From positions 1 through 64,000 of the forward strand of contig JAHHHV010000002.1 of NCBI GenBank assembly GCA_019359155.1: DNA of 64,000 nucleotides, read 5' to 3'. A program made the position numbers and the translations under genes. The notes under the pieces are model-generated. The model was given only the letters and a program-made list of their open reading frames with translations, was not told the DNA's origin and did no database searches. This stretch comes from Pegethrix bostrychoides GSE-TBD4-15B (GTDB taxonomy: Bacteria > Cyanobacteriota > Cyanobacteriia > Elainellales > Elainellaceae). Positions 5,668 to 35,024 of the stretch are shown here, in pieces; position 1 is the first letter of the stretch; every line of letters begins with the position of its first letter.

Positions 5668-6831
5668 TCAGTTCGCAACGTCAATTCGCACATCAACTTG
5701 CAGATTGGTCAAGGCAGCCACAGACTGGCTGTCATCCAGCTTCACCTTCACCTCCACCACGCGCGAGTCGGCGTTGGCGGCAGGATCGTCATCCAGCACA
5801 TTGTTTTTGAAGATCTGCCAGCCGATTTCGGAGACTTTGCCTGTCAAGGGCTGCTCAAATGCGCCGTTGCGGCTGGCAACTGTGGCGGACTGTCCCAGCT
5901 TGATGCGGCTCACATCCGTTTCGTACACCTCAGCCACGGCGACCATCTGGCGGGTGTCGCCCAAGTCGAGAATCCCATCTTCGCCAATTGCCTCGCCCGC
6001 TTTGGTAATGATCTTGAGAATGCGGCCATCGCGGGGAGCGCGAATCACGGTACGGTCGAGCTTAGCCTGGGCGAGCTGAAGGTTTTGGCGAGCCGATTCG
6101 GCGGTGACTTGGGTTTGGCTCAGGGGCAGGTTAGCGCGCTCGACTTGAAGCTGGGCTTCGGCGTTTTTGATTTCGGTCTGCTGGCGAGTCTGAATCCGGG
6201 TGAGGTTGGCGCGGGCGCTATTCAGCTTTTCCTGGGCTTGACGAGCAGCACTGATCTGGCGGTCGAGATCTTGCTTGGCAAGCGCTCCCTGGGCGTAGAG
6301 TTCCTCAAAGCGCTGCAAGTCCTGGTTGGCCAGCTCCAGATCGGCTGCCAACTCGCGGATGTTGGCCTGCTGGGCAGCAATTTCGGCGGCGCTGGGGGCG
6401 GCAACCTGCTGGACGCGGGTCTGGGCTTCCTGGATTTGGCTCTGGCCGTAGGCGGTTGTGGCCTGGAGGCTGCGTTCGGCTTCGTTGAGCTGGCTGGCGG
6501 CATAGTCGCGCTCGGCTTTGCGTTCGCCATAGCTTTCTAGATAGGCCAGCAGATCTCCAGCTTTGACTATATCGCCCTGCTTGACCTGAAGCCGCTGGAT
6601 GCGCTCGCCCGATGGCCCTCCAACTCGAACAACTTCGCTTTGAGGTTCGATCCGACCCAGTGCGACAACCTCAACGCGCTGGGGCAAGGCGGCAGTCTCG
6701 GCGGTTTCGGCAGGAGCAGGCGAGCGACTCAGCAGCCGGATTAGACCCAAACCTGCCGCGCCCAACGCCAGAAACGTAGCTAGGGCTGCAACTGCCCAGC
6801 CGGAACGGAAATTCTTTTTGGAGATTGCCAT
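5668..6831 (-). CDS. devB: DevB-type membrane fusion protein (HlyD family)
   Basis: This is the periplasmic adaptor of the exporter, linking the DevC/DevA inner-membrane pump to an outer-membrane channel. The 387-residue product has one N-terminal membrane helix (residues ~11-33), a half-lipoyl motif near VKQGDIVKAGDLLAYLES, a long coiled-coil hairpin rich in Ala, Gln and Glu (about 105-265), then the second half-lipoyl TVIRAPRDGRILKI and a beta-barrel domain. It is the first gene of the leftward devB-devC-devC-devA operon; the promoter should lie in the 6832-7060 gap. Confidence 0.93.
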   Translation of the reverse strand: MAISKKNFRSGWAVAALATFLALGAAGLGLIRLLSRSPAPAETAETAALPQRVEVVALGRIEPQSEVVRVGGPSGERIQRLQVKQGDIVKAGDLLAYLESYGERKAERDYAASQLNEAERSLQATTAYGQSQIQEAQTRVQQVAAPSAAEIAAQQANIRELAADLELANQDLQRFEELYAQGALAKQDLDRQISAARQAQEKLNSARANLTRIQTRQQTEIKNAEAQLQVERANLPLSQTQVTAESARQNLQLAQAKLDRTVIRAPRDGRILKIITKAGEAIGEDGILDLGDTRQMVAVAEVYETDVSRIKLGQSATVASRNGAFEQPLTGKVSEIGWQIFKNNVLDDDPAANADSRVVEVKVKLDDSQSVAALTNLQVDVRIDVAN

Positions 6832-7060
6832 ACGTTTTGTCTAACCGACCTGTCTAACTAGGGCTACTCTGCCCAAGCTCTATTTTTAACTGTTTTTAAC
6901 TATTTTTAAGATTTTTGAAGTTTCTTAGGTTTTGTTGCATTGCTTTTGGGTTTCACAAATGAGCTTTTGCAGCGGCATCCACCCAGTGAGCATGCTAGTT
7001 CTACTTTGCCAAGAGATCGGCGATTGAGCATCCTCCAGTCGGGCAGTCGGATAAACGCAG

Positions 7061-8164
<1,104 letters not shown>

Positions 8165-21271: not shown

Positions 21272-22060
21272 TTAAAGCGATCCAACCAGCGCACCTGAGC
21301 CGACTGAGCGAACAATTTCTCGTCCTGCTTGCTCTAGGATAACAACAGGCTCTAGCCCCATCTCAACTCGCTTAATTAAAACCTGACCGTTGGCCACCCG
21401 CTCCCCAACTGCCGCATAGCGACTGGTATATTCGTCAGCCGCTTTGATAATCACGTTGGTCTTGCCGCCCACCTGCACCACGCCGCTAATTTCCAGCGAT
21501 TCGGCAGCGCTGCGGGGCGGTGCCATCGGGCTAATGCCGGGGACGCTAACCGTCGGCAGATTTCCCGCAGCCAGCGGCGGTAGTGTTGCCGAAGCGGGCA
21601 GCAGGGGCGGCAGCGGAAAGACCGCAGGCGGCGGCGCTGGAGCTGGCGCGACCGGAACTGGCGCGACTGGAATCTGGACAACGGGTGCAGGATTGACTGC
21701 GGGTGCTCCGGCAGGCCGAACCTGCACGACTGTCGGAGCTAGACCCAGCGAAGCAAACGGGTCAGGTCGTCCACTGTCGATTTGCGGGACGCGCTGGGCG
21801 GAGGTGGTAAGCGGAATCAAGTTCGGGATAGGGTTGGACTGAACGGCTGAGCCTGCAACTGAGCCTGCAACCAGCGGATTTGGGAAGAAGTCTTGGGAGT
21901 CTAGGGGCGATGGCTCAGGCTGGGCTGCCGCAGTTGATTCATCCACAGCTGCCACTTCAGCAGGGACGCTCGGCTCGTTTTGGGAGGCCAATTTATTTGT
22001 GCAGCCTGCGCTCAGACAAAGTAGGCCAGCGATGCCCAACCACCATCTATTTCCACGCAT
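21272..22060 (-). CDS. Proline-rich lipoprotein with PilP-like C-terminal domain
   Basis: This 262-residue protein has a lipoprotein signal (GIAGLLCLSAGC, lipidated Cys20), a long Pro/Ala/Val-rich linker (about 30-175, including repeated PVAP), and a folded C-terminal domain of ~75 residues (LEISGVVQVGGKTNVIIKAADEY...VGERVANGQVLIKRVE) that resembles the PilP/GspC-type beta domain. Type IV pilus PilP proteins link the inner-membrane PilNO complex to the secretin. No pil genes lie nearby, so the pilus link is an inference. A 12-bp duplication occurs near 21848. Confidence 0.72.
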   Translation of the reverse strand: MRGNRWWLGIAGLLCLSAGCTNKLASQNEPSVPAEVAAVDESTAAAQPEPSPLDSQDFFPNPLVAGSVAGSAVQSNPIPNLIPLTTSAQRVPQIDSGRPDPFASLGLAPTVVQVRPAGAPAVNPAPVVQIPVAPVPVAPAPAPPPAVFPLPPLLPASATLPPLAAGNLPTVSVPGISPMAPPRSAAESLEISGVVQVGGKTNVIIKAADEYTSRYAAVGERVANGQVLIKRVEMGLEPVVILEQAGREIVRSVGSGALVGSL

Positions 22061-22202
22061 CGTCTCATCCCCACAAAATAGCTCTCATCAAATAATAATT
22101 GCGCTGCGCCAAAATGGACTATTTTCTTTTGGAAGAAGATATTTGGCCAGCGCAGTGTAGCAAATACGCAGCAATCTGAAATTGCCTAGTAAATTGCCCA
22201 GT

Positions 22203-22224
22203 AAAAAGGCGCATTGCTGCGCCT
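22203..22224 (-). terminator. Intrinsic terminator of the Gld-type ABC operon
   Basis: On the minus strand a perfect 7-bp stem aggcgca / tgcgcct with a 4-base loop is followed directly by a run of five T. It lies 110 bases past the stop of the last gene (22334) of the leftward ABC operon. Confidence 0.8.
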
Positions 22225-22333
22225 GTGAGGAGCGTGTTGAATTGACTAAGCCTCAACTACAGCGCCCCCAACGTCGATTCCAGAATTGTTGAAATTAATT
22301 TTGAAACTGAATTTTAAGCTGTTGGTGCTAGAA

Positions 22334-23008
22334 CTATTGGTCAGAATTTGGTGAGGCTTCGGGTGGAGTTTCGGGTGGAGTTTCCGGCAACACCGAGGGC
22401 GAAGCTGACTCAGAGGGTTCAGGACTCGCTTTCTGGCTCGATTTTTCGTCGGCTTTCCACTCGTCTAGCGGGCGGTTGACGGCGTTATCAAAGTTGGGCG
22501 AAACCAGCACCACCTGGAGATCTTTGGCATCAGCAGGTGGATCGATCTGGGCGTAGAAATGCGTCCGATTGAAGTCATATTCGCCGATCACCAGCTGATG
22601 CGTTTTTTGATCCTTGAGCGTCAGATCAATCGTGGCGGTCGGCTGATGCAGGCCAAACTGCTCGCGATCGGTGAGCGGCACGGTGAGGGTGCGGGGCGTT
22701 TTGTCAGAAGCCAACAAATCCAGCAGAAAGGCGAGCGACGGATCGCTGGCCGCCGTTTTCTCTGGCTCCAGCATTTGCCATTTACCGTCTTGATCGCGCT
22801 CAAACTTGAGGCTGTGCAGGCGAGTCTTCAGGGTCAGGCTTTGAATATCGGCAGCTGGGAAGGTAAACAGCGGCTGTTCGGCTTCCGTTACGGTCTGCGA
22901 CTTGTCATCGGCGGGCTTAGGTGCGGGCTGCTGCGCCACTAGCGCCACCACGCTGCCTAAGGTCAAGGCAGCTAGCAAAAGTCCCAAGGTTGTCGGCTGA
23001 ATTTTCAT
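22334..23008 (-). CDS. DUF4340 protein of Gld-type ABC system
   Basis: The 224-residue protein has an N-terminal membrane anchor (residues ~5-25) and a DUF4340 domain (FPAADIQSLTLKTRLHSLKFERD, LASDKTPRTLTVPLTDREQFGL, HQLVIGEYDFNRTHFYAQI). DUF4340 genes regularly follow GldG-type genes in ABC operons linked to gliding or exopolysaccharide export; the biochemical role is not known. The acidic, Pro/Ser-rich tail includes a 12-bp in-frame duplication (22358-22381). Its ATG abuts the gldG-like stop. Confidence 0.84.
   Translation of the reverse strand: MKIQPTTLGLLLAALTLGSVVALVAQQPAPKPADDKSQTVTEAEQPLFTFPAADIQSLTLKTRLHSLKFERDQDGKWQMLEPEKTAASDPSLAFLLDLLASDKTPRTLTVPLTDREQFGLHQPTATIDLTLKDQKTHQLVIGEYDFNRTHFYAQIDPPADAKDLQVVLVSPNFDNAVNRPLDEWKADEKSSQKASPEPSESASPSVLPETPPETPPEASPNSDQ
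22358..22381. repeat. In-frame tandem duplication, 12 bp x2
   Basis: Two perfect copies of ttcgggtggagt encode a repeated PETP in the tail of the DUF4340 protein. Confidence 0.8.
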
Positions 23009-24622
23009 CTAGCGTCTCCTCCACCAGATCAGCGCCGCCGTCCCAAAACCCAGCAGCGGCAGCAGCACCAGCGCCAGCAGCACCGAGCTAATCTGCTGCG
23101 CTCCCGACATCACAATCCGGCGGTTGGTCATTTCTTTGGGGCGAATCGAGAGCACCTGATCATCCTGCTGACTCAGCCAGCTCACAGCATTCAAAAACAG
23201 GTCGCCGTTGAGCTGCTGGTCAAACAGCCCATCTGTGGCAAAGCTGGAGCTGCCAATGACGACGAGCCGCGCTTCGGGCTGAGTTTTCTCGGCTTCGTCA
23301 GGTGAGGGCGAAGGGCTAGGACTTGGCTCTGGGGGCTTGGCGGCTTCAGGCGTTTCAACCGTGCGGCTGAATGCAGCGCCCATGTCAAAGGGGCCTTTGG
23401 GATCGGCAGGGTCAGCTTTGACTGCGCCTGTGCCTGCTTCGATTTGCTGCGCCTGCGTCTGGGCAGAGGTGGTGAGCAGTGCCGTAGCCTGGACTTGATC
23501 AACCGGCGAGATTTGCAGAGGTCGCGCCAGTGGGAAAAACGAAATGCCGTTTTTGAAGCCCTGCGTAATCGGGTGCTCACCGTATTGGCTGATGATCACC
23601 ACGCCTGCCCCTAGCCCCGACTGTTCGCCTGCCGGATCGATCACCAGTCGGTCGCTCAGCGTCACGCCCCAGGGCTTCAGCAAGCCGTCCAGATTGGGAT
23701 CGGTTTGGGGATCTATCAGCATCATCAGGCCACTCTTGCGCTTCAGGTAGTCTTCCAGGGCAGTGACTTCTGAGGGCAGCAAGCCTCGCTGCGCTCCGGC
23801 CATCACCACAACGCTGGCATCTTCCGGGATTTTGGGATTCTCAGCCAGATTCAGCGGCTCAGCTGTCAGGCTCTCTTCGCTTAACCGCTGCTGCACCTGC
23901 GAGAAGCCGCCCTGCCCCGCCTCCAGACCTCGCTCGCCATGCCCCTGCAAGAAATAGACCTTGCGCGGCTGGCTGTCTGCCTGGGCAATGCCATTGGTCA
24001 GCTTGCGCTCTGAGAGCTTTTCCTGAGGATTAACCGTCTGCACCAGCCGCCGCTTGCCGTCTGTTTCCAAGTAGAGTTCGCCAAGCTGCTGCACGCCGAA
24101 CTCGCGCGCCACCCCTGGTTTTGCCTGCGGATCGACAAACTCATAGCTAAACTGGCTGGTCTCGCGCCGATAGTTATCGAGCAGCTGCCGATCGATTGGG
24201 CTGGGGCTAGGCGTAAAAATCCAGGCTTTGACCGGCTGCTTCAAGTCACCTAGCACCTGCTGCGTCTGGGGCGCAAGCGTGAACAGCTGGTTCTCAGTCA
24301 GGTCAATCTGGCTGCTATAGCGCGTCCCCAAAAAGTTGACGAAGCCCAAAATCAGCAAGACCGAGAGCGTCGCCACCACGGCATTGGTGCCCACCTGCGT
24401 TGAGCGCTGACTCCAGAAGCTTCGCCCGGCATAGCCACCCAAAATCAGCCAGCCAATCAGCGCCACCAGCCCCGCCAGCACGATGGTGATAGGCGCTGCC
24501 GTCCAGCCAGCAATTGCGCCTGCGGTGAGTCCGGCAATTACCAAGCAAAGCGCCAGCCAGAGCAGATATTTAGCGTATTTCTTAAAGGAACTGAGCGAAC
24601 GGCTCGGAGAAGTCAGCTTCAT
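23009..24622 (-). CDS. GldG-family ABC auxiliary protein
   Basis: The 537-residue protein has N-terminal membrane helices (about 18-65 and 84-100), a large extracytoplasmic GldG-type domain (SQIDLTENQLFTLAPQTQQVL, VYFLQGHGERGLEAGQGGFSQV, LMMLIDPQTDPNLDGLLKPWGV) and a final helix near 512-533 (SVLLALVLLPLLGFGTAALI). GldG pairs with the GldF permease and GldA ATPase. A proline/glutamate linker lies near residues 420-455. It is the third gene of the leftward operon. Confidence 0.87.
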   Translation of the reverse strand: MKLTSPSRSLSSFKKYAKYLLWLALCLVIAGLTAGAIAGWTAAPITIVLAGLVALIGWLILGGYAGRSFWSQRSTQVGTNAVVATLSVLLILGFVNFLGTRYSSQIDLTENQLFTLAPQTQQVLGDLKQPVKAWIFTPSPSPIDRQLLDNYRRETSQFSYEFVDPQAKPGVAREFGVQQLGELYLETDGKRRLVQTVNPQEKLSERKLTNGIAQADSQPRKVYFLQGHGERGLEAGQGGFSQVQQRLSEESLTAEPLNLAENPKIPEDASVVVMAGAQRGLLPSEVTALEDYLKRKSGLMMLIDPQTDPNLDGLLKPWGVTLSDRLVIDPAGEQSGLGAGVVIISQYGEHPITQGFKNGISFFPLARPLQISPVDQVQATALLTTSAQTQAQQIEAGTGAVKADPADPKGPFDMGAAFSRTVETPEAAKPPEPSPSPSPSPDEAEKTQPEARLVVIGSSSFATDGLFDQQLNGDLFLNAVSWLSQQDDQVLSIRPKEMTNRRIVMSGAQQISSVLLALVLLPLLGFGTAALIWWRRR

Positions 24623-24650
24623 AAAAAATTAGGTTGAACCTTTTCAAAAT

Positions 24651-25451
24651 CTAGGAGCGCTGGAACCGGAAGGCTTCAATCGACTGAGCGGTGAGAAATA
24701 GACCCAGCAAAATATAGCTGACAAACACCAGAATGCTGCTGCTGTCAAAAATCCCCTGGGTGAGCGTGTTGTAGTTTTTGATCAGCGATAAATGTTTTAG
24801 CCCATCGCCGACTGGCCCAACTAGGCTATTGGCCACCAGCTCGATCACCCAGAGCACCAGCACTAGCCCAAAGGTGAGAATTGCCGCCAGAATCGTGCTG
24901 TCGGTCAGTGACGAGACAAACATCCCCAGCGACAGAATTGCCCCAGCCAGCAGCACCAGCCCCAGATGCCCCAGCAACATCACCGTTAGCGAGGCAGGCG
25001 GATCTGAGGCGCTGACGGCAATCGCCTGATAGAGCAGCAGCGGCAGCAGCAGCGTGATGAAAAACGTGATTGCCCCTAGCCACTTACCTAGCGCTACCAC
25101 CCAATTGGTTAAAGGCGAGGTGGCCAATAGCTCCAGCGTGCCGCGCTTGCGTTCTTCGGCATATAGCCCCATCGAAATCATTGGCAAAATGAACATGGCC
25201 AGCGAACTCAGCGTGCCGAGAAAAAAGCTGAGAAACTGATAGGGCACGTCAGTTGGCTGACCCGTCACGCCCATCTGATCCCGCAGGGCAGACTGGGCAA
25301 TTAGCCCCTCTGGGCCGAGCAAAATTGCGAAGAAGAAAAAGCCGCTCAGCAGCCAGAATACGCCTGCAATCACGTAGGCAAACGGTGAGGCGAAGTAGCT
25401 TTGCAGCTCGCGGCGGTAGATGGCAATCAGGTTGGCAAAAATTACGCGCAT
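24651..25451 (-). CDS. ABC-2 type permease (GldF-like)
   Basis: The 266-residue membrane protein has six predicted helices and starts LIAIYRRELQSYFASPFAYVIAGVF, the standard opening of GldF-type ABC-2 permeases. It also shows AMFILPMISMGLYAEERKRGTLELLATSPL, the conserved cytoplasmic coupling segment. It is encoded directly after the ATPase gene (stop at 25452, ATG at 25451), so the two are cotranslated. Confidence 0.9.
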   Translation of the reverse strand: MRVIFANLIAIYRRELQSYFASPFAYVIAGVFWLLSGFFFFAILLGPEGLIAQSALRDQMGVTGQPTDVPYQFLSFFLGTLSSLAMFILPMISMGLYAEERKRGTLELLATSPLTNWVVALGKWLGAITFFITLLLPLLLYQAIAVSASDPPASLTVMLLGHLGLVLLAGAILSLGMFVSSLTDSTILAAILTFGLVLVLWVIELVANSLVGPVGDGLKHLSLIKNYNTLTQGIFDSSSILVFVSYILLGLFLTAQSIEAFRFQRS

Positions 25452-26555
25452 TTAGGCATCTCCTGGCTCGGCGTTCGCTGGATCTTCTGGATTGTCCAAA
25501 TCGACTGGCTCAGCGACGGCGACTGCCTCCGCTGGGGCTGCTTTTGTGTCTGCTTTCGCCCGCTCGTCGGCTTGCGCCATTTCCTCTGGGTCAATTACCT
25601 TCTCTTCAGTTGTCAGCTCTAAGAACACATCTTCCAGCGTGACGCGGGTGCGCCGCATTTCAAACAGCCCTAGCCCCGCCTGCACGACTGCCGCCGCAAT
25701 CTCACCACCCGGATCGGGCAGATTGGCCTCCAGCGCCACCCGCAGCCGAAAATGCTCGGCGGGCAGACTCTCATCGGCTATTTGCTCCACGCTCTTAACG
25801 CCGGGTAGCAGACTGGGCATTTGTTGAATCTGCCAGTCTAGCTGCGCCGGATTGCCCGCCACCTCTAGCTCGTAGCCATCTCCGCCTGCCAGCTCGGCCA
25901 TGAGTTGTTCAGGAGTGTTGGTGGCGACGACGCGCCCTCGGTTGATGATCGCCACGCGGCTGCAAGTCATGCTGACTTCGGGCAGGATATGCGTCGAGAG
26001 AATAATCGTATGTTCGCCCGCTAGACTCTTGATCAGGTTTCGCACGTCGATGATTTGGCGCGGATCTAGCCCGACAGTCGGCTCGTCTAAAATAATGGCG
26101 GGCGGGTCATGCACAATGGCTTGGGCGATGCCAACCCGCTGCCGAAATCCCTTCGAGAGCTTGCGGATCAGCACGCTCCGCTTTTCGAGCAGGTTGCACC
26201 GCTTCAGAGCATTTTCGACCTGCGCGATGCGATCACCTGCCGCCACGCCTTTGATCCGCGCCACGAAATGCAGAAACCCTTCCACCGTCATGTCAGTATA
26301 GAGCGGCGGCGTTTCGGGCAGGTAGCCAATCTGTCGCCGCACGGCCATCGAGTTTTCATGCACGTCAAATCCGGCGATGCGGGCAGTGCCGCTGCTGGCT
26401 GGCAGATAGCCCGTCAGAATCCGCATTGTGGTGGTTTTGCCAGCACCATTTGGCCCCAAAAAACCCAGAATTTCGCCTTTCTCCACGGAAAAGGTGACAT
26501 CCTGAATAGCAGGAGTGGAGCCATAAATTTTGCTCAGATGTTCGACTTCAATCAT
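25452..26555 (-). CDS. ABC transporter ATPase (GldA-like) with acidic C-terminal tail
   Basis: The 367-residue ATPase has Walker A GPNGAGKTTT, signature LSKGFRQRVGIAQAI, Walker B AIILDEPTVGLD and H-loop STHIL. The region after ~residue 215 is the usual GldA-type C-terminal domain; the last ~40 residues form an Ala/Glu/Asp-rich tail. It is the first gene of the leftward operon ATPase - permease - GldG - DUF4340. Such systems are linked to gliding, polysaccharide or adhesin export; the substrate here is unknown. Confidence 0.9.
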   Translation of the reverse strand: MIEVEHLSKIYGSTPAIQDVTFSVEKGEILGFLGPNGAGKTTTMRILTGYLPASSGTARIAGFDVHENSMAVRRQIGYLPETPPLYTDMTVEGFLHFVARIKGVAAGDRIAQVENALKRCNLLEKRSVLIRKLSKGFRQRVGIAQAIVHDPPAIILDEPTVGLDPRQIIDVRNLIKSLAGEHTIILSTHILPEVSMTCSRVAIINRGRVVATNTPEQLMAELAGGDGYELEVAGNPAQLDWQIQQMPSLLPGVKSVEQIADESLPAEHFRLRVALEANLPDPGGEIAAAVVQAGLGLFEMRRTRVTLEDVFLELTTEEKVIDPEEMAQADERAKADTKAAPAEAVAVAEPVDLDNPEDPANAEPGDA

Positions 26556-26717
26556 GGGTGAAGTAAGGGGCGAGGAATGGGATGCGAGCGCTATGCTGTT
26601 ATATCCGAAGCTGGGCAGTTTGGACAGAATTGAACATTAAAAGTTTCAACGGGCAATTGTAGCTAAAAGATCTGGATCTCTGGGAAATCCGGGGAACCAA
26701 GACGTGACACAGACTGG

Positions 26718-27518
26718 TTAGCTTGCCGTAGGGGCTGGAGCGGTTGCAGTTGTCTCAGCCTGATCTGCCGACCGATCTCCTGACAGAGCTGCTGGCTGCA
26801 TGTAGTCTGGAAATCCGGGAATCGGCTTGAGCTCTGGCAGTCTGTAGGTTAGTGCCTTGCTGGTTTGTTTGTGCAGCCCCACAATCGCCTCGGCCAGCTT
26901 CACGGCAGCGGCGACTGCATCAATGATGGGAATGCCCAACCGCTGCTCTAGCTCCAGATCCAGACGACTCATCCCGGCACAGCCCAGACAGAGCGCCTCG
27001 GCACGATCTTGCTCCATTGCTAGCCTTCCAGCAATTTCCAGGGCATCTAGCGTTTGCTGCCGCGCATTTTCGGTTTCAATCACCGGAATGCCCGTGGTGC
27101 GAATTGAGACACAGCGTTGGGCAAAGCCCGTTTTGGCAATGGTCTTCTCAATCATATCCAGTGCCCGATGTTGCGTTGTCACCACGCCCCAACGCGCCGC
27201 CAGCATATTGGCCACATACATACTCGCCTCGGCAATGCCAATCACGGGTTTGGTTGTCACTTCGCGAGCCGCTTCCACGCCCGGATCGCCCCAGCAGGCA
27301 ATCACAAAGGCATCAAACTGGTCTTTGCCCAGCACCACCTGCTCTAGAATGCCGGGGATTGCCAGATACTCGTCGTAGTAGCTTTCGATAGACTGAGGGC
27401 CAGTCTTGGGCTGCGTGGTGATGACTGTAGTTTGCGGGGCGCGTGCCGCCTGTGCAGATTCGTCGATGCCCTGCGTCATCGGTTCGTAGGTATTGCCGTT
27501 GATTACCTGAATTCGCAT
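26718..27518 (-). CDS. Aspartate/glutamate (hydantoin) racemase family protein
   Basis: The 266-residue enzyme has the two catalytic cysteines of the Asp/Glu racemase superfamily, in FVIACWGDPGVEA and LCLGCAGMSRL, with the family block VIGIAEASMYVANML between them. The start MRIQVINGNTYEPMTQGI at 27518 is used in place of an ORF extension of eight residues, because IQVINGNTN-type N-termini are typical of hydantoin racemases. It would interconvert an amino acid or hydantoin derivative by a two-base mechanism. The Ala/Thr/Pro-rich C-terminal tail looks unstructured. It is the last gene of a leftward three-gene group. Confidence 0.84.
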   Translation of the reverse strand: MRIQVINGNTYEPMTQGIDESAQAARAPQTTVITTQPKTGPQSIESYYDEYLAIPGILEQVVLGKDQFDAFVIACWGDPGVEAAREVTTKPVIGIAEASMYVANMLAARWGVVTTQHRALDMIEKTIAKTGFAQRCVSIRTTGIPVIETENARQQTLDALEIAGRLAMEQDRAEALCLGCAGMSRLDLELEQRLGIPIIDAVAAAVKLAEAIVGLHKQTSKALTYRLPELKPIPGFPDYMQPAALSGDRSADQAETTATAPAPTAS

Positions 27519-27581
27519 CAAGCTAAATATAGCAGCAGACATGGCGGTACAGAGTGCAACAGTCGTATTTTACAGCAGTCA

Positions 27582-27619
27582 TATTTTACGGTACTGTTCA
27601 AATTTTACGGCACTGTTCA
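27582..27619. repeat. Tandem repeat, 19 bp x2 plus partial copy
   Basis: Two near-identical 19-bp units (tattttacggtactgttca and aattttacggcactgttca) lie upstream of the Asp/Glu racemase gene, with a degenerate related stretch just before. They sit in its presumed promoter region. Confidence 0.75.
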
Positions 27620-27792
27620 GGTTGGCAGATTCTCTACTCAGAGAATTGTCTGATTGAGGGATCATCTAGGCATTACCTACGGTTTGAGAACAGGCGGTAA
27701 ACATAAAAAAATAATTGTTGAGAATGAATTTCTTATCAATTTTTTATCAAAAAAACAGCTTGCAGGGCGTTGGTTGAGGATAGTCAAGGTGA

Positions 27793-28863
27793 CTAAGCAC
27801 AGCTGATAAACTGCTTGCTCACAAAAGGAGAAGTCATTGCTGACAGCAGCCCACCATAGTCTAAGCTGAACTTGACTTCACTGCCAATTTTCAAATTCCG
27901 GTGTCTACTGTCGAGCACAACATGATCGCTGCTAGATCCGAGTATCTCCAGATCGTCATTTGGTTTTAGACCAGAGACCAGAACGTCCTGTCTGCCCAGA
28001 GCAATAATAATGCGCTGATGAATTCCTCGATCGAGAAATGTCGGGACGTTTCCGAAAGCATCTCGGCAGATTTCTCCAAACGGCAAAGAGGGCTTTTCCT
28101 TGGACTCGATGACTTCAGCCGTTAATTCAAAGGCGCTAGTACATAAACCCGGAATTGCCTGCTGGTTGACAGTTTCACGCCCCAGGAGAATCGATTCGCC
28201 TAGCCGGAGATTATTAATTCTGCCAACTGTTTGTGCAGACTCATACCACTCATAGTTTGCTGAATTGCCACCTGAAACTATCTCTAAGTTAATTTGAAAT
28301 TCTTTTTCAATGGCCTCAGCGAGTTCGGACAGCTCGCGCATTTTTTGCATATCTGGCTTAATGCCGCCATAGCAGGCTAAATTGCAGCCGATGCCAATCA
28401 CTTTGACGCTGGATAGCTCAAGCGTTTTTTTGACGAACTGGAGCATGTCACAGGGCAGAATCCCCTCGCGCAGATCGCCCAGCTCTACCATGACAATGAT
28501 CTGATGAACCTTCTGAGATAGATTTGCGTAGTAGCAAAGCGCTTTCACCGTCTGAAATTCTGTATTCAGACTAATGTTCACATCCTGCACCACAGATTCT
28601 GCTTGACTCAAAGCCGTGCGAAGCAGCACAAACCGAGCTGAGACTCCGGCTTGCTTCATCTTTTGAATGTTCTCAAGGCGTGAGTCTGCGATAAATTTTA
28701 CGCCTCCTTGAATCATCGCCTGGGCAATTAAGGGATCACCCAGGGTTGCCTTAGAAACCCCCATTAGAGAAATACCTTTTTGCCCATAACGTTCAGATAG
28801 AATCTGAGCGTTATGCTGAATTTGAGATAGGGAAATCTCGATTCTGGGTAGCAATGCTTTCAT
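27793..28863 (-). CDS. Fold-type III PLP-dependent racemase (alanine/ornithine racemase family)
   Basis: The 356-residue enzyme starts LPRIEISLSQIQHNAQIL and places its PLP-binding lysine at Lys38 in MGVSKATLGD. Further blocks are VMVELGDLREGILP, IGIGCNLACYGGIKP, LEIVSGGNSANYEW and INNLRLGESILLGRE, as in the alanine/ornithine racemase-like (YhfX-type) group rather than biosynthetic Alr. It would racemise a small amino acid. It is AT-richer than the flanking operons and lies 81 bases downstream of the DUF1611 gene. Confidence 0.86.
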   Translation of the reverse strand: MKALLPRIEISLSQIQHNAQILSERYGQKGISLMGVSKATLGDPLIAQAMIQGGVKFIADSRLENIQKMKQAGVSARFVLLRTALSQAESVVQDVNISLNTEFQTVKALCYYANLSQKVHQIIVMVELGDLREGILPCDMLQFVKKTLELSSVKVIGIGCNLACYGGIKPDMQKMRELSELAEAIEKEFQINLEIVSGGNSANYEWYESAQTVGRINNLRLGESILLGRETVNQQAIPGLCTSAFELTAEVIESKEKPSLPFGEICRDAFGNVPTFLDRGIHQRIIIALGRQDVLVSGLKPNDDLEILGSSSDHVVLDSRHRNLKIGSEVKFSLDYGGLLSAMTSPFVSKQFISCA

Positions 28864-28944
28864 CTATGCTTCTATTCATTTTGTCAAAATATTTTCTGTC
28901 GAAATATTTTGAGATGTTTTTCTGAGATGTTTTTCTGCCTGCCT

Positions 28945-30063
28945 CTATCTCGCTACTAGCAGAGGCGCTGGCAAATGAGCCTGCTTGATTTTTTGATTGA
29001 GCTTCGGAAAATAGCTGCATAGGCTTTGAATTAGCTTCTCACACCCGTAGTTCAACACGTCTGTTGTGGGCAGTCGTAGCCGACTCTCATAGTCCGCGAT
29101 GATTGCTGGAATCTCCGCGTCCGTCAAGGCTTCGTGACTCAGCGCGATGGCAATCACCTGAGACTGGGAGATCGCTTCAATCAGCTGAATTTCACTCTCG
29201 ACCGTCGGCATTGCCAAATGCGGAAAATCACATCGGAATTTTCGAGCTGGCGGGTGCTGGAGAATAACGCTGTCCGGCATACTTCCCTTCAAAATTCCCA
29301 GAGAACTCATGAACGCAGGATGGCTGATTGCGCTCTGTCCCTCCACCAAAATCACGTCAGGATTTTCACCCTCAAATGCTCGAACGACCGCATGTTCTAT
29401 CTCACCAATCACGAACTGAGACACGAGCGCGTCGATAGATGCACCATACTTAGCTCCCTGCATCAGGCTAGTCTGTCCTGTTGCCACCAGCACCGACTTG
29501 ACGCCCAGCCTGTTGAGCGCTTTGTTGAGTTCGACTGCTGTCGTCATCTTCCCGCAGGCACAGTCCGTGCCGAGTACAGCAATCACCGGAACATTGACTT
29601 GAGCGATTTGACCTGTAAAGACATGCAAATCTTCCAGCTTCGGAGATTTTCTAATGTCCTGGATTTGAACGCCGCACTGACTCGCCATCTGCACAAATTC
29701 TGAATCCTCAGAAAAGAATTCGTGAAGGCCATTGATGATGTTCATACCTGCCTGCATGGCTTGCAAGATGAGAATCCTTTCTGCCGCCGAAATCCGAGCA
29801 TCTAAGGGCGCTTTCCCGTAGATGTAGCAATTGGGAACCTCTGAAAGCTGCGCCAAAGCTGCCTCTAAATTGGCAAAAATAGGAATGCCGTTCTGCTGAT
29901 CTCCTAGCGCTGCTCCGGCATCCTGACCTGCCAACGCGCTGTCGATCACTCCGACGATGCTGTAGATCTCAGAATGTCGAACCAAGCCTGCGGCAGTTTT
30001 TCCATCTACAAAGCCAAACTGATTTTCGCAGTAAATCAGAGCCGTTTGTTTTACGTCTACCAT
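28945..30063 (-). CDS. DUF1611 family protein (DgcN-like)
   Basis: The 372-residue protein matches DUF1611. It has an N-terminal Rossmann-like half (ALIYCENQFGFVDGKTAAGL) and a P-loop-type half with GTDCACGKMTT (residues 165-175) followed by LVATGQTSLMQGAKYGASID and ILVEGQSAISHPAF. DUF1611 members called DgcN act as N-acyltransferases on D-glutamate in a D-Glu degradation route, partnered by DgcA or dipeptide epimerases. Here the partner is a PLP racemase instead. It is the first gene of the leftward group. Confidence 0.84.
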   Translation of the reverse strand: MVDVKQTALIYCENQFGFVDGKTAAGLVRHSEIYSIVGVIDSALAGQDAGAALGDQQNGIPIFANLEAALAQLSEVPNCYIYGKAPLDARISAAERILILQAMQAGMNIINGLHEFFSEDSEFVQMASQCGVQIQDIRKSPKLEDLHVFTGQIAQVNVPVIAVLGTDCACGKMTTAVELNKALNRLGVKSVLVATGQTSLMQGAKYGASIDALVSQFVIGEIEHAVVRAFEGENPDVILVEGQSAISHPAFMSSLGILKGSMPDSVILQHPPARKFRCDFPHLAMPTVESEIQLIEAISQSQVIAIALSHEALTDAEIPAIIADYESRLRLPTTDVLNYGCEKLIQSLCSYFPKLNQKIKQAHLPAPLLVAR

Positions 30064-30174
30064 TGATAATTTATTTCTTGTTTATTTTTTCAAGCTGTTC
30101 TGAAATCTCAAGAGGCTATCTTGGAGCTGCCAAGCCTCTAACTACCTATATTCTGGCTACTTAATATGTTCTGG

Positions 30175-30206
30175 CCAATATGTGTTCTAGCCAATATGTG
30201 TTCTAC
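30175..30206. repeat. Tandem repeat, 16 bp x2 plus a degenerate copy
   Basis: Two copies of ccaatatgtgttctag (the second ends in c) lie upstream of the DUF1611 gene, and a degenerate copy lies just before them (about 30160-30174). Confidence 0.8.
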
Positions 30207-30518
30207 CAACTAGGCTCTGTCTGCGGGCTTTAACTTGCACTCGGCTTGTCCCAAATGAAAGCCTTTAAATATCTTTTGATTCGTTCAGACGATTGCTCAA
30301 ACTGCGCGTAGCGCCAGCTGTTGATTTGATTTGAAAAGCTTGAGCAATGTAGATTTTGCAACGAAAATCTCAAGCCTTGATTGAGCTTTGGTTTGAATCG
30401 GCATTGACTCAACTGTAGCACAATATACTTTTTTGCATGAGGACACCTGGTGTTAGGCCGCTGACAGGATGCGGACAGCAGGCTACGAGCTGCCAGTCTG
30501 AAACCTGAACCGGTAGCG

Positions 30519-30544
30519 CTATTCTCTCTTTTGAGAGAGAATAG
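30519..30544. promoter_or_regulatory. Perfect 10-bp inverted repeat upstream of the serine protease
   Basis: Arms ctattctctc and gagagaatag are separated by ttttga. The element lies about 50 bases before the protease ATG. It is not followed by a T run on the plus strand, so an operator or a leader hairpin is more likely than a terminator. Confidence 0.45.
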
Positions 30545-30596
30545 TTGTAAGCGGTGAATGATGACCTGATCGCCACGAACCCCTGATGAATGTCAA

Positions 30597-31910
30597 ATGA
30601 ATGCCAAACTCCAATTCCTCGATCGGATGCGGCCTGCCCAACGGCGGCTGATTGCCTTGACGGTACTGCTGGCGCTCCTGCCAGTCGGCGTTAGCCTGTT
30701 CAAAAAAGCCCCTACTCCAGAGGCCAACCCTCAGTTTGAACAGGCTTATCAGGCGGTTTTGCAGCTCAGTCAGTCACCTTCTGAGCATACGAAGCGATTT
30801 AGCTATGGCGGAATTAGTCAGCTTGACTATGATCGCTGGCGGCAGCTCAACAGCAAGCCCATTGCCGATATTGACAAAATTCGCCCTGAAGAAGTCAAGG
30901 CGATCTATCAAGAGCAGTGGCAAAAGGGCGACTGCGCCCAGTATGTTGCGCCGCTGGATGTGACCTGCCTCGACAGCATGATTAGCTTTGGCGATATTCA
31001 AGGCAAACAGCTGCTAGCCGATCTGCCTGCTGATCCCGCTCAGGCAGCCATGCTGGTGGTCGAACGCCGCGAGCTAGAGCGCCGTGAACAGGTGCGTCCA
31101 CCCCTGACTCCCAGCAAGCGCCTCACTCTGCGAGAAGGAGTTAGACGCGATCAGGCGCTAGCTGACCTAATTGCCTTGCCGTCCGTCTCCCCGAAGCAAT
31201 CTGGCCTGCCGCCTGCCGTTTCGCCCAATGCTCCAGCCCGATCCAATACCGCCCAGTTGGCCGGTCAGATCTATACGGCGCTGCGACCCTCAACCGTTGA
31301 GATTGAAGACCGCACTCGGCGCGGCTCTGCTTCAACCGCAGCAGGCGTAATTTTGACGGCTGATGGCCTGGTCATGACTAACTACCATGTGGTGGCCTCA
31401 GACTCGCGCCCCCGCGTCAAGCTCTCGGATGGACGGGCATTTGTAGGGTTGGTGATTTTGGTAGACGAATCGCTGGATTTGGCGCTGGTGCAGCTCCAGG
31501 GTGCCAGCGATTTGCCCGTAGCTCCGCTGGCTGAGAGTACGGCGCAATTGCAGGTGGGTGATCAGGTCTATGCCATTGGCTCGCCGCTGGGCAAAAGCTG
31601 GAAGCTGTCGCAGGCGCAGGTGATTGAGCTAAACAGCACTTGCGCCAACGGCAGCTCGCCATTGCGCTGCATTCGGACTCCCAGAGGCTTTTTGCAGCCC
31701 GGAAATAGCGGTGGTCCTTTGATTGATGAGAGCGGGCAGGTGATTGGTATTAACCGAGCCGTGCAGCAGTCTACGGGCGAAGGCGTGAGCATTCCGGTTG
31801 AGACGGTCAAGCAGTTTTTAGCACAGCGCTCCAGCCAGCCCCCTGGCGCTGTACCTGGACCTAACCCGCTGAGACTGCCGCTCCCGAATCCGTTTAGACG
31901 CTGGATTTGA
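30597..31910 (+). CDS. Membrane-anchored trypsin-like (S1C) serine protease with extra N-terminal domain
   Basis: The 437-residue protein has one N-terminal membrane helix (residues ~17-34), an extra domain at ~45-135, a charged linker and an S1C protease domain from ~220. The triad is His264 (TNYHVVAS), Asp294 (ESLDLALVQL) and Ser371 (LQPGNSGGPL), all intact. No PDZ domain follows, unlike typical Deg proteases. The N-terminal domain has the layout of GH108-type peptidoglycan hydrolases (YGGISQLDYDRW, VKAIYQEQWQKGDC, CLDSMISFG), but the expected catalytic Glu is not evident. It probably acts in the periplasm, perhaps at the wall. It is convergent with the ABC-F gene. Confidence 0.85.
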   Translation: MNAKLQFLDRMRPAQRRLIALTVLLALLPVGVSLFKKAPTPEANPQFEQAYQAVLQLSQSPSEHTKRFSYGGISQLDYDRWRQLNSKPIADIDKIRPEEVKAIYQEQWQKGDCAQYVAPLDVTCLDSMISFGDIQGKQLLADLPADPAQAAMLVVERRELERREQVRPPLTPSKRLTLREGVRRDQALADLIALPSVSPKQSGLPPAVSPNAPARSNTAQLAGQIYTALRPSTVEIEDRTRRGSASTAAGVILTADGLVMTNYHVVASDSRPRVKLSDGRAFVGLVILVDESLDLALVQLQGASDLPVAPLAESTAQLQVGDQVYAIGSPLGKSWKLSQAQVIELNSTCANGSSPLRCIRTPRGFLQPGNSGGPLIDESGQVIGINRAVQQSTGEGVSIPVETVKQFLAQRSSQPPGAVPGPNPLRLPLPNPFRRWI

Positions 31911-32027
31911 TGCGGCGCTAATTTTGCTGCTTGAAGCTCGCGCTAATTCTGCTCAATAGCGGCTCCGTCGTCGTGCTTTGAAGGCCGGGGCGAATTGTTC
32001 TAGACTGTACGCAGTCCGCACTGGGGT

Positions 32028-33932
32028 TTAAACCAACTCAGCCAGCTCCAGCCAGCGTTCAGTTGAGGTGGCAATCGTTTGCTCTAGAGCTGCAAGCTGA
32101 GCGGTCAGATCCTGCATTGCGCTAAATTCGGCGGGCGGATTTTCGCAGAGCTGCTGTTCGAGCCGGGTTTTCTCGGCTTCGAGATCCGGAATTTTGGTCT
32201 CAAGCTGTTCAAACTCGCGCTTCTCTTTGTAAGACAGGCGACGCTTAGATTCAACGGGGGGCGCGGCAGGTGCAGCCGCTTCGACAGCTTTCTCTAGCTT
32301 TTCTTCGGCTTCCGGCTTGGTTGCTTCGGTCTGCTGATAGTCGAGATAGACGGAGTAATTGCCGGGATATTGCCGGACGTTGCCGCCCTCCTCAATCGCA
32401 AAAATGCTTTCTACCGTGCGATCGAGAAAATAGCGATCGTGCGAAACTACAATCACGCAGCCGTTGAAACTTTCGAGATATTCTTCTAGGATCGCTAGCG
32501 TCTGCACATCTAGGTCGTTGGTTGGCTCGTCTAAAATCAGCATGTTGGGCGCTGACATCAGCACGCGCAGCAGAAACAGCCGTCGCTTTTCGCCCCCCGA
32601 CAGCTTGCTAATTGGCGAATACTGCTGGCTGCCTGGAAACAAAAACCGCTCTAGCATCTGCGAGGCCGTAATCACCGAGCCGTCTGAGGTTTTAACCAGT
32701 TCAGCGACATCTTTGAGATATTCAATCACGCGCTGATTTGGATTGACGCTCAGATCGTCGGAATGCTGATCAAAGTAGCCAATATGAATGGTGCTGCCGA
32801 TTTCCACCGTACCGCTATCGGGCTGCACCTTGCCCGTAACCATATTCATCAGCGTGGTTTTACCCGCACCGTTACCGCCAATAATCCCAATTCGATCGTC
32901 AGGATTAAACTCGTAGCTAAAATCTTTGATCAGCGTCCGGTCACCGTAAGCTTTGCTAATGCCGTGCAGCTCGACCACTTTTTTACCAATCCGCCGTCCG
33001 GCAGTCGAAATATCGATCTTGCCTTGCTGCTGCTTAAACTCTTTGGTCTGCATCTCGCCGATCCGGTCAATGCGGGCTTTTTGCTTAGTGCTGCGGGCTT
33101 TGGGGCCGCGCTTCAGCCATTCTAGCTCGCGCCGCAGTACGCCCTGATGCTTGCGCTGTGAGCTAACTTCGGATTCTTCAGCCAGCGCTTTCTTCTCCAG
33201 ATAGTAAGAATAGTTGCCGTCGAAGGTATACAGATCGCCGCGATCGAGTTCGACAATCCGGTTGGTAACGCGATCGAGAAAATAACGGTCGTGGGTAATT
33301 AAAAACAGCGCGCCACGATAGCGGTTCAGATAGCTTTGCAGCCATTCTACCGAGAGCGCATCGAGATGGTTGGTTGGCTCGTCCATCAGCAGCACGTCAG
33401 GGTCAGAGAGTAGGGCAGTCGCCAGCGCAATCCGCTTGCGGTAGCCGCCTGAAAGATCGCCAACTCTGGCCTCCAGATCATCAATGCCCAGCTTGGAGAG
33501 CACAATTTTGGCTTGAGTTTCCAGCTCCCAGGCTCCGGTCGCGTCCATCTGCTCCATCACCGTGGAGAGCCGCGCCATCAGCTTGTCCGGGTCGCCTGAC
33601 CCATGCGCTAGCTTGTCAGAGATCTCTTCATATTGGCGCACCAGCTTCATTTGGTTGCCGCTGTCGGCAAAGATTTGCTCGATTACCGTGCGATCTTCGT
33701 CCACCTCCGGCTGCTGCGGCAAATAGACAATTCGCACACCCGAATTCAGCAAGCGCTCGCCGCTGTCGATGGGTTCAAGTCCAGCAATCATTTTGAGCAG
33801 AGTGGATTTACCGGAGCCGTTGGTGCCAATTAGCCCGACCTTATCGGTGGCTCCCAGACTGAAGTTGGCATCCTTGAGAATCTCCTTGATGCCAAAATCT
33901 TTTTTTACCCCTTGCAATGTAAAGATGCTCAT
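32028..33932 (-). CDS. ABC-F family ATPase (Uup-like)
   Basis: The 634-residue protein has two ABC ATPase domains and no membrane segments. Walker A motifs are GTNGSGKST and GGNGAGKTT; signatures are LSGGYRKRIALA and LSGGEKRRLFLL; Walker B motifs are LLMDEPTNHLD and LILDEPTNDLD. The interdomain linker (about 240-310) holds the charged LKRGPKARSTKQKARI helix of the Uup group, and the C-terminal ~100 residues form a coiled coil as in Uup. ABC-F proteins act on ribosomes or, for Uup, on branched DNA or ribosome assembly. It is 54 bases downstream of ddl. Confidence 0.92.
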   Translation of the reverse strand: MSIFTLQGVKKDFGIKEILKDANFSLGATDKVGLIGTNGSGKSTLLKMIAGLEPIDSGERLLNSGVRIVYLPQQPEVDEDRTVIEQIFADSGNQMKLVRQYEEISDKLAHGSGDPDKLMARLSTVMEQMDATGAWELETQAKIVLSKLGIDDLEARVGDLSGGYRKRIALATALLSDPDVLLMDEPTNHLDALSVEWLQSYLNRYRGALFLITHDRYFLDRVTNRIVELDRGDLYTFDGNYSYYLEKKALAEESEVSSQRKHQGVLRRELEWLKRGPKARSTKQKARIDRIGEMQTKEFKQQQGKIDISTAGRRIGKKVVELHGISKAYGDRTLIKDFSYEFNPDDRIGIIGGNGAGKTTLMNMVTGKVQPDSGTVEIGSTIHIGYFDQHSDDLSVNPNQRVIEYLKDVAELVKTSDGSVITASQMLERFLFPGSQQYSPISKLSGGEKRRLFLLRVLMSAPNMLILDEPTNDLDVQTLAILEEYLESFNGCVIVVSHDRYFLDRTVESIFAIEEGGNVRQYPGNYSVYLDYQQTEATKPEAEEKLEKAVEAAAPAAPPVESKRRLSYKEKREFEQLETKIPDLEAEKTRLEQQLCENPPAEFSAMQDLTAQLAALEQTIATSTERWLELAELV

Positions 33933-33986
33933 GCTCGTCGCCCAGAATTCTAACCAGAACTATCACCAGCACCTTAACATATTGGG

Positions 33987-35024
33987 CTAGTAGCTCTCTG
34001 AGGCCCGCGCTTGCGCCAGCTCAACAAGCCGCACAACTAGCTCTGGAAAGGCAATGCCACTGGCCTCCCAAAGCTGCGGATACATGCTGGTGGCGGTAAA
34101 ACCGGGCATCGTATTAATTTCGTTGATCAAAATCTCGCCTGTGGCTTCCAGATAAAAGAAGTCCACCCGCGAGATTCCGGCTCCATCCACAGCCAGAAAT
34201 GCCTGCACCGCCATCTCCTGGATTTTGCGGCTGACTTCTGGTGGCAGCTGGGCGGGAATATGCAGATCGGCTTTGCCAGCAGTGTACTTCGTTTCGTAGT
34301 CATAGAAGTCGCTGCTGAAGCTGATTTCGCCTACGACCGAGGCCTGGGGCTGATCGTTGCCTAATACGGCACATTCGACTTCCCGTGCCGCCACGCCCGC
34401 CTCGACAATCAGGCGACGGTCATAGCCAGCCGCGCTGTGCAGTGCCGCCTCTAGCTCGGTGCGGCTGCGAGCTTTAGCGATACCGACCGAAGATCCGAGG
34501 TTGGCGGGCTTGATGAAGCAGGGATAGCCCAGCTCGACTTCAATTTGATGGCAGAGCTGAGAGAAACTGCCGGGGGCGCGAACTTGGCTGCGCGTCGCGG
34601 CGAGATATTTGACCTGCGGCAGTCCAACCTGGGCAAAGGCGCTTTTCATCGCCAGCTTGTCCATCCCAATCGCCGCAGCCAGCAAGCCGCAGCCAACAAA
34701 CGGCACCTGCATGAGCTGTAATAGCCCCTGAATCGTGCCGTCTTCGCCATTTGGCCCATGCAGCATTGGAAACCACAGATCGACCTGACGCGCCGTTGCC
34801 GGAAACTCCCAGAGCCTGCCAGCTTCTAGGCTGGGATGCCCAGAATCCAGCACCCGCTGCGCCCGTTCCCCTGCCTGCCAGATGCCGTCTTTCTGAATGT
34901 AAAACGGCAGAATTTGATACTGGTCGTGGGCTTTTAGCGCTTTGACAATTGCCTGAGCTGAGCTGATCGAGACTTCATGCTCGCCAGAGCAACCGCCAAA
35001 TAAGGCTCCAATTCGCAGCGTCAT
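33987..35024 (-). CDS. ddl: D-alanine--D-alanine ligase
   Basis: The 345-residue ATP-grasp ligase makes D-Ala-D-Ala for peptidoglycan. Seen are the N-terminal [31 protein letters not shown], the ATP-grasp loop [16 protein letters not shown] and the metal-binding [17 protein letters not shown]. It is transcribed leftward ahead of the ABC-F gene and is separated from dps by a strong hairpin. A D-amino-acid-like gene group lies about 4 kb away but not in the same operon. Confidence 0.95.

Follow-up and report, generated by a model that had tools for sequence, protein, structure and literature searches.

A two-gene unit of a DUF1611 protein and an ornithine-racemase-like PLP enzyme with putative D-amino-acid chemistry, in Pegethrix bostrychoides and across distant phyla

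The window analysed in this work is composed of the first 64,000 nucleotides of contig JAHHHV010000002.1 of the cyanobacterium Pegethrix bostrychoides GSE-TBD4-15B (GCA_019359155.1), and the locus of interest is a pair of minus-strand genes encoding a DUF1611 protein and a racemase-like enzyme of the pyridoxal phosphate (PLP) dependent type. The first gene of the pair (28945-30063) encodes a 372 amino acid protein, here termed DUF1611 type 2, which belongs to the DUF1611 family by its matches to PF07755 (228.4 bits, cut-off 25) and PF17396 (76.4 bits, cut-off 22.6). Beyond a spacer of 81 bp (28864-28944) lies the second gene (27793-28863), encoding a 356 amino acid ornithine-racemase-like fold-III PLP enzyme (PF01168, 82.6 bits). 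A third minus-strand gene (26718-27542), separated from the pair by 250 bp, encodes a 274 amino acid protein of the allantoin/hydantoin racemase type (PF01177, 172 bits) and is judged to lie outside the unit. The first-pass annotation of this DNA had reported three leftward genes, and their open reading frames (ORFs), strand and Pfam families were all confirmed. It had also described the region as richer in AT than its flanks. The GC content is 45-52% across 27000-31000 (1-kb steps) against about 55% around, and the z scores of GC at third codon positions (GC3) among the 49 window ORFs are -2.36 for the PLP racemase, -1.25 for DUF1611, a weaker dip, and a normal -0.44 for the PF01177 gene, so that the description fits the pair but not the third gene.

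Two sequence features near the pair were spotted by eye. The intergenic spacer carries a perfect 10-bp AT-rich inverted repeat (28885-28894 and 28902-28911), a putative element, and upstream of the DUF1611 gene, at 30140-30225, near-repeats of agaacacatattggc are found. No window match reached the Rfam gathering score. Promoter-like sites in the window numbered 11 against 3.9 (standard deviation 2.1) in shuffles and terminator-like sites 3 against 4.2; these counts are not used as evidence.

In order to define the unit, the racemase was followed through 291 cyanobacterial genomes of the class, of which 41 had a match of any kind. Thirty-three of these, scoring at least 287 bits, were kept, including one genome with the match split into two pieces (G228) and some loci with a short or broken DUF1611 ORF (L082, L085 and L087); the eight dropped were weak partial matches of 18-24 bits, among them one of 24% identity without DUF1611 (G181, the same as L088). 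A type 2 DUF1611 gene is present upstream on the same strand in all 33 loci; in 32 the two genes overlap or are no more than 100 bp apart, and in the remaining one the spacer is 283 bp. Nodosilinea nodulosa PCC 7104 and Leptolyngbya sp. PCC 6406 are among the culturable carriers. A survey of 60 relatives gave the same picture, the racemase being present in eight and a DUF1611 match adjoining it in every case. When 34 loci were compared, no further gene family was common to more than five of them.

The association extends well beyond the cyanobacteria. A scan of genome contigs with the racemase gave at least 541 relatives, and among the best 80, a selection which leans to close relatives, 77 have DUF1611 upstream of the racemase in the same orientation. 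In 74 of these 77 the spacer is at most 100 bp, and in 36 the two ORFs overlap, with starts picked mechanically. Many of the loci are contigs of metagenome-assembled genomes (MAGs), in which binning errors can produce false phylum labels. On plasmids, 21 records had a racemase match and seven, at 39-47% identity, were read in their context; three of them, from Vibrio parahaemolyticus, V. europaeus and Phaeobacter porticola, carry the pair, whose proteins bear only generic NCBI names there. A single search with the racemase found no viral copies. The unit is composed of two genes, DUF1611 and the PLP racemase, and their linkage (33/33 and 77/80) is far above chance. The PLP racemase partner seen in the first-pass annotation is real, and the pairing recurs elsewhere, not being peculiar to this genome.

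The pair has a partner specificity of its own, which became evident by comparison with the common type 1 DUF1611 of cyanobacteria. Forty stretches of 15 kb around type 1 genes, picked by the authors and mostly on long contigs, served as controls. The two types separate cleanly by sequence, since all 40 controls favour the type 1 query and all 33 pair loci the type 2 query. In the type 1 stretches an epimerase gene similar to DgcA is found within 300 bp in 26, farther away in three, and was not found in 11 (L193, L194, L195, L197, L201, L202, L209, L212, L219, L229 and L230). Cyanobacteria thus often have the DgcN-DgcA-like pair in a split or incomplete form. The PLP racemase is present in none of the 40 type 1 stretches and a DgcA-type epimerase in none of the 33 pair loci: the two DUF1611 types have mutually exclusive partners. 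The genome of the window carries one DUF1611 of each type. Its type 1 copy matches 2obn at 471.6 bits and is preceded by a gene for an enolase-superfamily protein (PF02746/PF13378), the only such partner scanned against Pfam and NCBIfam, whose best NCBIfam match is DgcA (222 bits, cut-off 400).

Horizontal transfer is the simplest reading of the distribution of the pair. In a tree of 80 racemase sequences, from which one locus with a racemase ORF below 300 amino acids (L154) was left out, the window racemase groups with those of Acaryochloris, Halomicronema, ESFC-1 and three further cyanobacteria (seven rows, support 100/95). Inside the cyanobacterial part lie rows with the labels Nitrospinota, Thermodesulfobacteriota, Pseudomonadota and Planctomycetota; support for several of the inner forks is weak, and some bins could be mixed. 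A single clade for the four members of the window's own family was rejected (approximately unbiased test, p-AU 0.00047), in an analysis whose bootstrap had not converged and whose group was chosen once the tree had been seen. In 12 of 13 sampled loci the pair is also more AT-rich than the flanking DNA. An ancient presence followed by many losses is possible as well. The transferred unit suggested in the first-pass annotation is plausible for the pair.

The DUF1611 type 2 protein has a Rossmann-like N-terminal domain and a P-loop domain of the BioD/MinD kind. Its predicted model (predicted local distance difference test score, pLDDT, 86.8) is closest to the solved structures 2obn (Z 38.7) and 2g0t (Z 35.1), and matches DgcN (7xrj) with Z 30.4 and a root-mean-square deviation of 4.3 over 321 residues. 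In an alignment of 39 DUF1611 sequences the P-loop TDxAxGK and the motifs TGQ and EGQ do not vary. The racemase (pLDDT 90.7) has a predicted fold-III barrel of the alanine racemase type, with matches to alanine racemases up to Z 29.1 (5yyc) and nearly equal ones to beta-hydroxyaspartate aldolase, D-threonine aldolase and D-serine dehydratase (Z 26-27) and to E. coli YhfX (25.9). The PLP lysine, K38, is present in 33 of 33 aligned racemases; beyond residue 231 the sole invariant tyrosine is Y336 (33/33).

The closest known system is the DgcN-DgcA pathway for D-glutamate, reportedly described by Yu et al. in ISME J in 2023. To our knowledge the acetylation of D-glutamate, with an epimerase as partner, is the sole function reported for DUF1611. 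By their database titles DgcN is an N-acetyltransferase (7xrj, PDB) and DgcA an N-acetyl-D-Glu racemase (NCBI name). The window pair has in common with this system the two-domain DUF1611 fold, the P-loop, TGQ and EGQ motifs and a partner inverting the alpha-carbon. It differs in that its partner belongs to the PLP racemases of free amino acids, whereas DgcA is an enolase-type racemase of N-acetyl-D-Glu. In the DgcN-DgcA pathway the acetyl group is added first and DgcA then inverts the acetylated amino acid; in the window pair the order would have to be the reverse. According to two papers (PMC12363236, PMC10845958), DgcN, working with DgcA, is the key gene of a pathway that racemises acidic D-amino acids and the corresponding amides. 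The type 1 DUF1611 of cyanobacteria (2obn, Ava_3511) has the same fold and 30-34% identity to the window protein, and is distinguished by its partner, as described above.

The racemase is of the same full-length family as the ornithine racemase Orr (NF040742) and is 40% identical to the Acetoanaerobium noterae protein, which passes the cut-off for Orr (549.6 bits) and is encoded in the same gene row as OraE, one gene away. The ORF list of the window for 22000-35000 has no large OraE-like entry, and the loop SGGNSANYEW of the window racemase reads SGGNSSSIYL in Orr. None of the 291 cyanobacterial genomes reaches the Orr cut-off of 480 bits. As a candidate substrate, the kinship of the racemase points to ornithine or arginine and that of DUF1611 to glutamate.

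D-amino-acid chemistry is likely for the pair, presumably the inversion of an amino acid to its mirror image with capping to follow; synthesis, detoxification and salvage are candidate purposes. Our best model, held tentatively and at slightly less than even confidence, is a horizontally moving two-gene module in which the racemase makes a D-amino acid that DUF1611 then N-acylates. The fold-III enzyme would racemise a free amino acid through a Schiff base on Lys38, and DUF1611 type 2 would move an acyl group, possibly acetyl by analogy with DgcN, onto the amino group of the D-form. PLP racemases need a free amine, which places racemisation first and N-acylation second in this model. Acylation would pull the balanced racemisation one way, so that the D-amino acid leaves circulation as an N-acyl-D-amino acid. 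The linkage of the two genes, the exclusive partners of the two DUF1611 types, the DgcN-like fold and the kinship of the racemase with Orr speak for this model.

Several observations weigh against this model. The DUF1611 protein scores 153 bits against the DgcN model (NF041892), below the curated cut-off of 480, and is farther from DgcN than the type 1 copy of the same genome (232 bits). The racemase, at 395.1 bits, is likewise below the curated Orr cut-off. As neither protein passes the cut-off of its characterised relative, the pair appears to be a variant, identical neither with DgcN-DgcA nor with Orr. A P-loop domain of the ATP-binding BioD/MinD kind would also be compatible with a ligase or a kinase. 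In addition, no tyrosine is found at positions 280-294 in any of the 33 racemases, in a part where the alignment to alanine racemase is loose; the second catalytic base of alanine racemase, a tyrosine, would presumably be expected there, and a lyase or a one-sided reaction is possible. The Acetoanaerobium Orr equally has no tyrosine at 280-294. No deacylase is consistently linked to the pair in the loci read. Finally, the DUF1611 link weakens with distance, being kept by three of the seven plasmid racemases and missing from the other four. Among those without DUF1611, the Acetoanaerobium plasmid carries Orr near OraE, and the racemase of the Ilyobacter plasmid is Orr by cut-off.

A further plasmid without DUF1611, from Roseateles (L190), carries a gene (5992-7779) in which an Orr-like racemase is joined to a domain of the arginase family, adjoined by genes for a D-amino acid dehydrogenase and a 5-guanidino-2-oxopentanoate decarboxylase. 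This looks like a D-arginine route, and the neighbours and the fusion indicate arginine for that branch.

The other partners of the racemase speak for the model, in that they too act on amide bonds of D-residues. In one MAG locus (L107), moreover, an M20 deacylase gene is situated between DUF1611 and the racemase. Outside the cyanobacterial set, in 39 loci (L134-L173 minus L154; the other 41 of the 80 are the set of the window itself), a VanX-like M15 peptidase is present in 24, fused to the C-terminus of the racemase in 14, Aquimarina being a fused case, and separate nearby in 10. Some of the 15 loci without it have hardly any downstream sequence (none in L164, 257 bases in L139). PF01427 was above its cut-off in all seven scanned of the 24, and the four translations read show the zinc-ligand-like stretches SxHxxGxAxD and ExWH. 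This partner fits a release of D-amino acids no less than their capping, a further point to be set against the model. In a rival reading the pair, with the dipeptidase where present, would serve in salvage: short D,D- or L,D-peptides arising in cell-wall turnover would yield free D-amino acids, which are then converted to the L-form, with DUF1611 as an activation or peptide-processing step and not the final capping. We regard this as unlikely, though the best of the alternatives: the M15 gene is absent from all 41 loci of the cyanobacterial set, some on short contigs, none of three M15 proteins scanned reached the VanX equivalog cut-off, and where DUF1611 is replaced, in three loci, the replacement is of the ligase and not the hydrolase type.

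These three replacements, the exceptions among the 80 loci, carry in the place of DUF1611 a gene with the C-terminal ATP-grasp domain of D-Ala-D-Ala ligase. In two Heimdallarchaeota MAGs (L136 and L144) it lies 1 bp before the racemase ORF, and in a Pseudomonadota MAG (L155) it overlaps it. They are one argument for DUF1611 type 2 being itself an ATP-dependent ligase with a BioD-like P-loop, which would join the D-amino acid made by the racemase to another amino acid or acid, the product being a dipeptide with a D-residue or a small metabolite resembling a peptide. The match of the P-loop domain to dethiobiotin synthetase (BioD, Z 15.0) and a weak match to the peptide maturation model TIGR04066 (33 bits against 200) are in keeping with this. 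The whole-protein fold and the motifs match DgcN, titled an N-acetyltransferase, however, and all three replacements come from MAGs. We give the ligase a somewhat smaller chance than salvage.

The outer versions of the module, in which the fold-III racemase is accompanied either by a VanX-like dipeptidase or by an enzyme similar to D-Ala-D-Ala ligase, resemble the Van-type resistance sets, which combine a VanT racemase, a D-Ala-D-X ligase and a VanX or VanXY dipeptidase. We know of no Van system of which DUF1611 is a part. The likeness is limited, as the proteins scanned are below the Van equivalog cut-offs and the set of loci to which the window belongs has no dipeptidase.

As judged from its sequence and surroundings, the third gene is a bystander unrelated to the pair. 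The best solved matches of its product are allantoin/hydantoin racemases (3qvj, E 7.5e-51; 5lfd, E 7.6e-49), and a match is present in 25 of 35 genomes searched, the own genome counted and some matches being weak. Six neighbourhoods of the gene (L174-L177, L182 and L183) showed no consistent partner; the neighbour genes of the window are not beside it there, and other matches to window proteins are to common families only, at below 34% identity. An empty-site comparison within the genus gave no readable empty site, the gene order around this gene and the upstream trypsin-like gene not being conserved. Of the 33 cyanobacterial loci only the window itself has it close to the pair, and the gene-neighbourhood survey proposed in the first-pass annotation hence bears out the co-occurrence of the pair and not that of the third gene. 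The three-gene module of D-amino-acid families put forward there, including the Asp/Glu-racemase-family gene, could appeal to three neighbouring genes on one strand, but an allantoin/hydantoin-racemase-like product, native GC3, the 250-bp gap and the absence from the other 32 pairs rule it out in practice, leaving two D-amino-acid genes and a neighbour.

Other genes recur in the surroundings of the pair. A protein of about 170-210 amino acids without a name is encoded directly upstream of DUF1611 in three loci of Nitrospinota and Nitrosomonas (L106, L108 and L111) and a few hundred bases upstream in two others (L098 and L129); two of these proteins were scanned and had no Pfam match. On both Vibrio plasmids (L184 and L185) a gene similar to the type II secretion pilotin (PF16549) overlaps the end of the racemase gene. 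Of 102 groups, five separate ones have GroEL at less than 5 kb from the pair (L078, L084/L131, L098, L185 and L186), two of them plasmids, accompanied by GroES in L098, L185 and L186. GroES alone and SPFH/Band-7 genes recur near the pair in Aquimarina, and SPFH is present also in L094 and L113 and, by clustering only, in L086. The idea of a stress island was dropped, since GroEL in 2 of 32 cyanobacterial pair stretches against 0 of 40 controls, and on two of the three pair plasmids, is too few and a post hoc count. In the window, a D-alanine-D-alanine ligase gene at 33987-35024, above the cut-off of its model, is taken as housekeeping.

A search of titles and beginnings of abstracts in the open-licence literature found no paper on the pair. 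The pair represents a second partnership of DUF1611, this time with a PLP racemase. Across distant phyla, 77 of the 80 closest loci (of at least 541) retain it, with telling swaps and fusions involving a VanX-like dipeptidase, a D-Ala-D-Ala-ligase-like enzyme and once an M20 deacylase. In its widest form the proposal, which we put forward as a speculation of low probability, is of a mobile flip-and-cap pathway shared by many bacterial phyla and by some archaea. An Orr-type racemase would make a D-amino acid, the P-loop DUF1611 (or the D-Ala-D-Ala-ligase-like enzyme in two archaeal MAGs and one bacterial) would lock it in an amide, the product would be an N-acyl-D-amino acid or a peptide with a D-residue that has so far not been described and might act in stress or salt metabolism, and in some lineages the fused dipeptidase would take it back. 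The two enzymes are small, apparently soluble and directly testable, and the result would point to a possible role of the many proteins which are at present named only alanine/ornithine racemase family and DUF1611.

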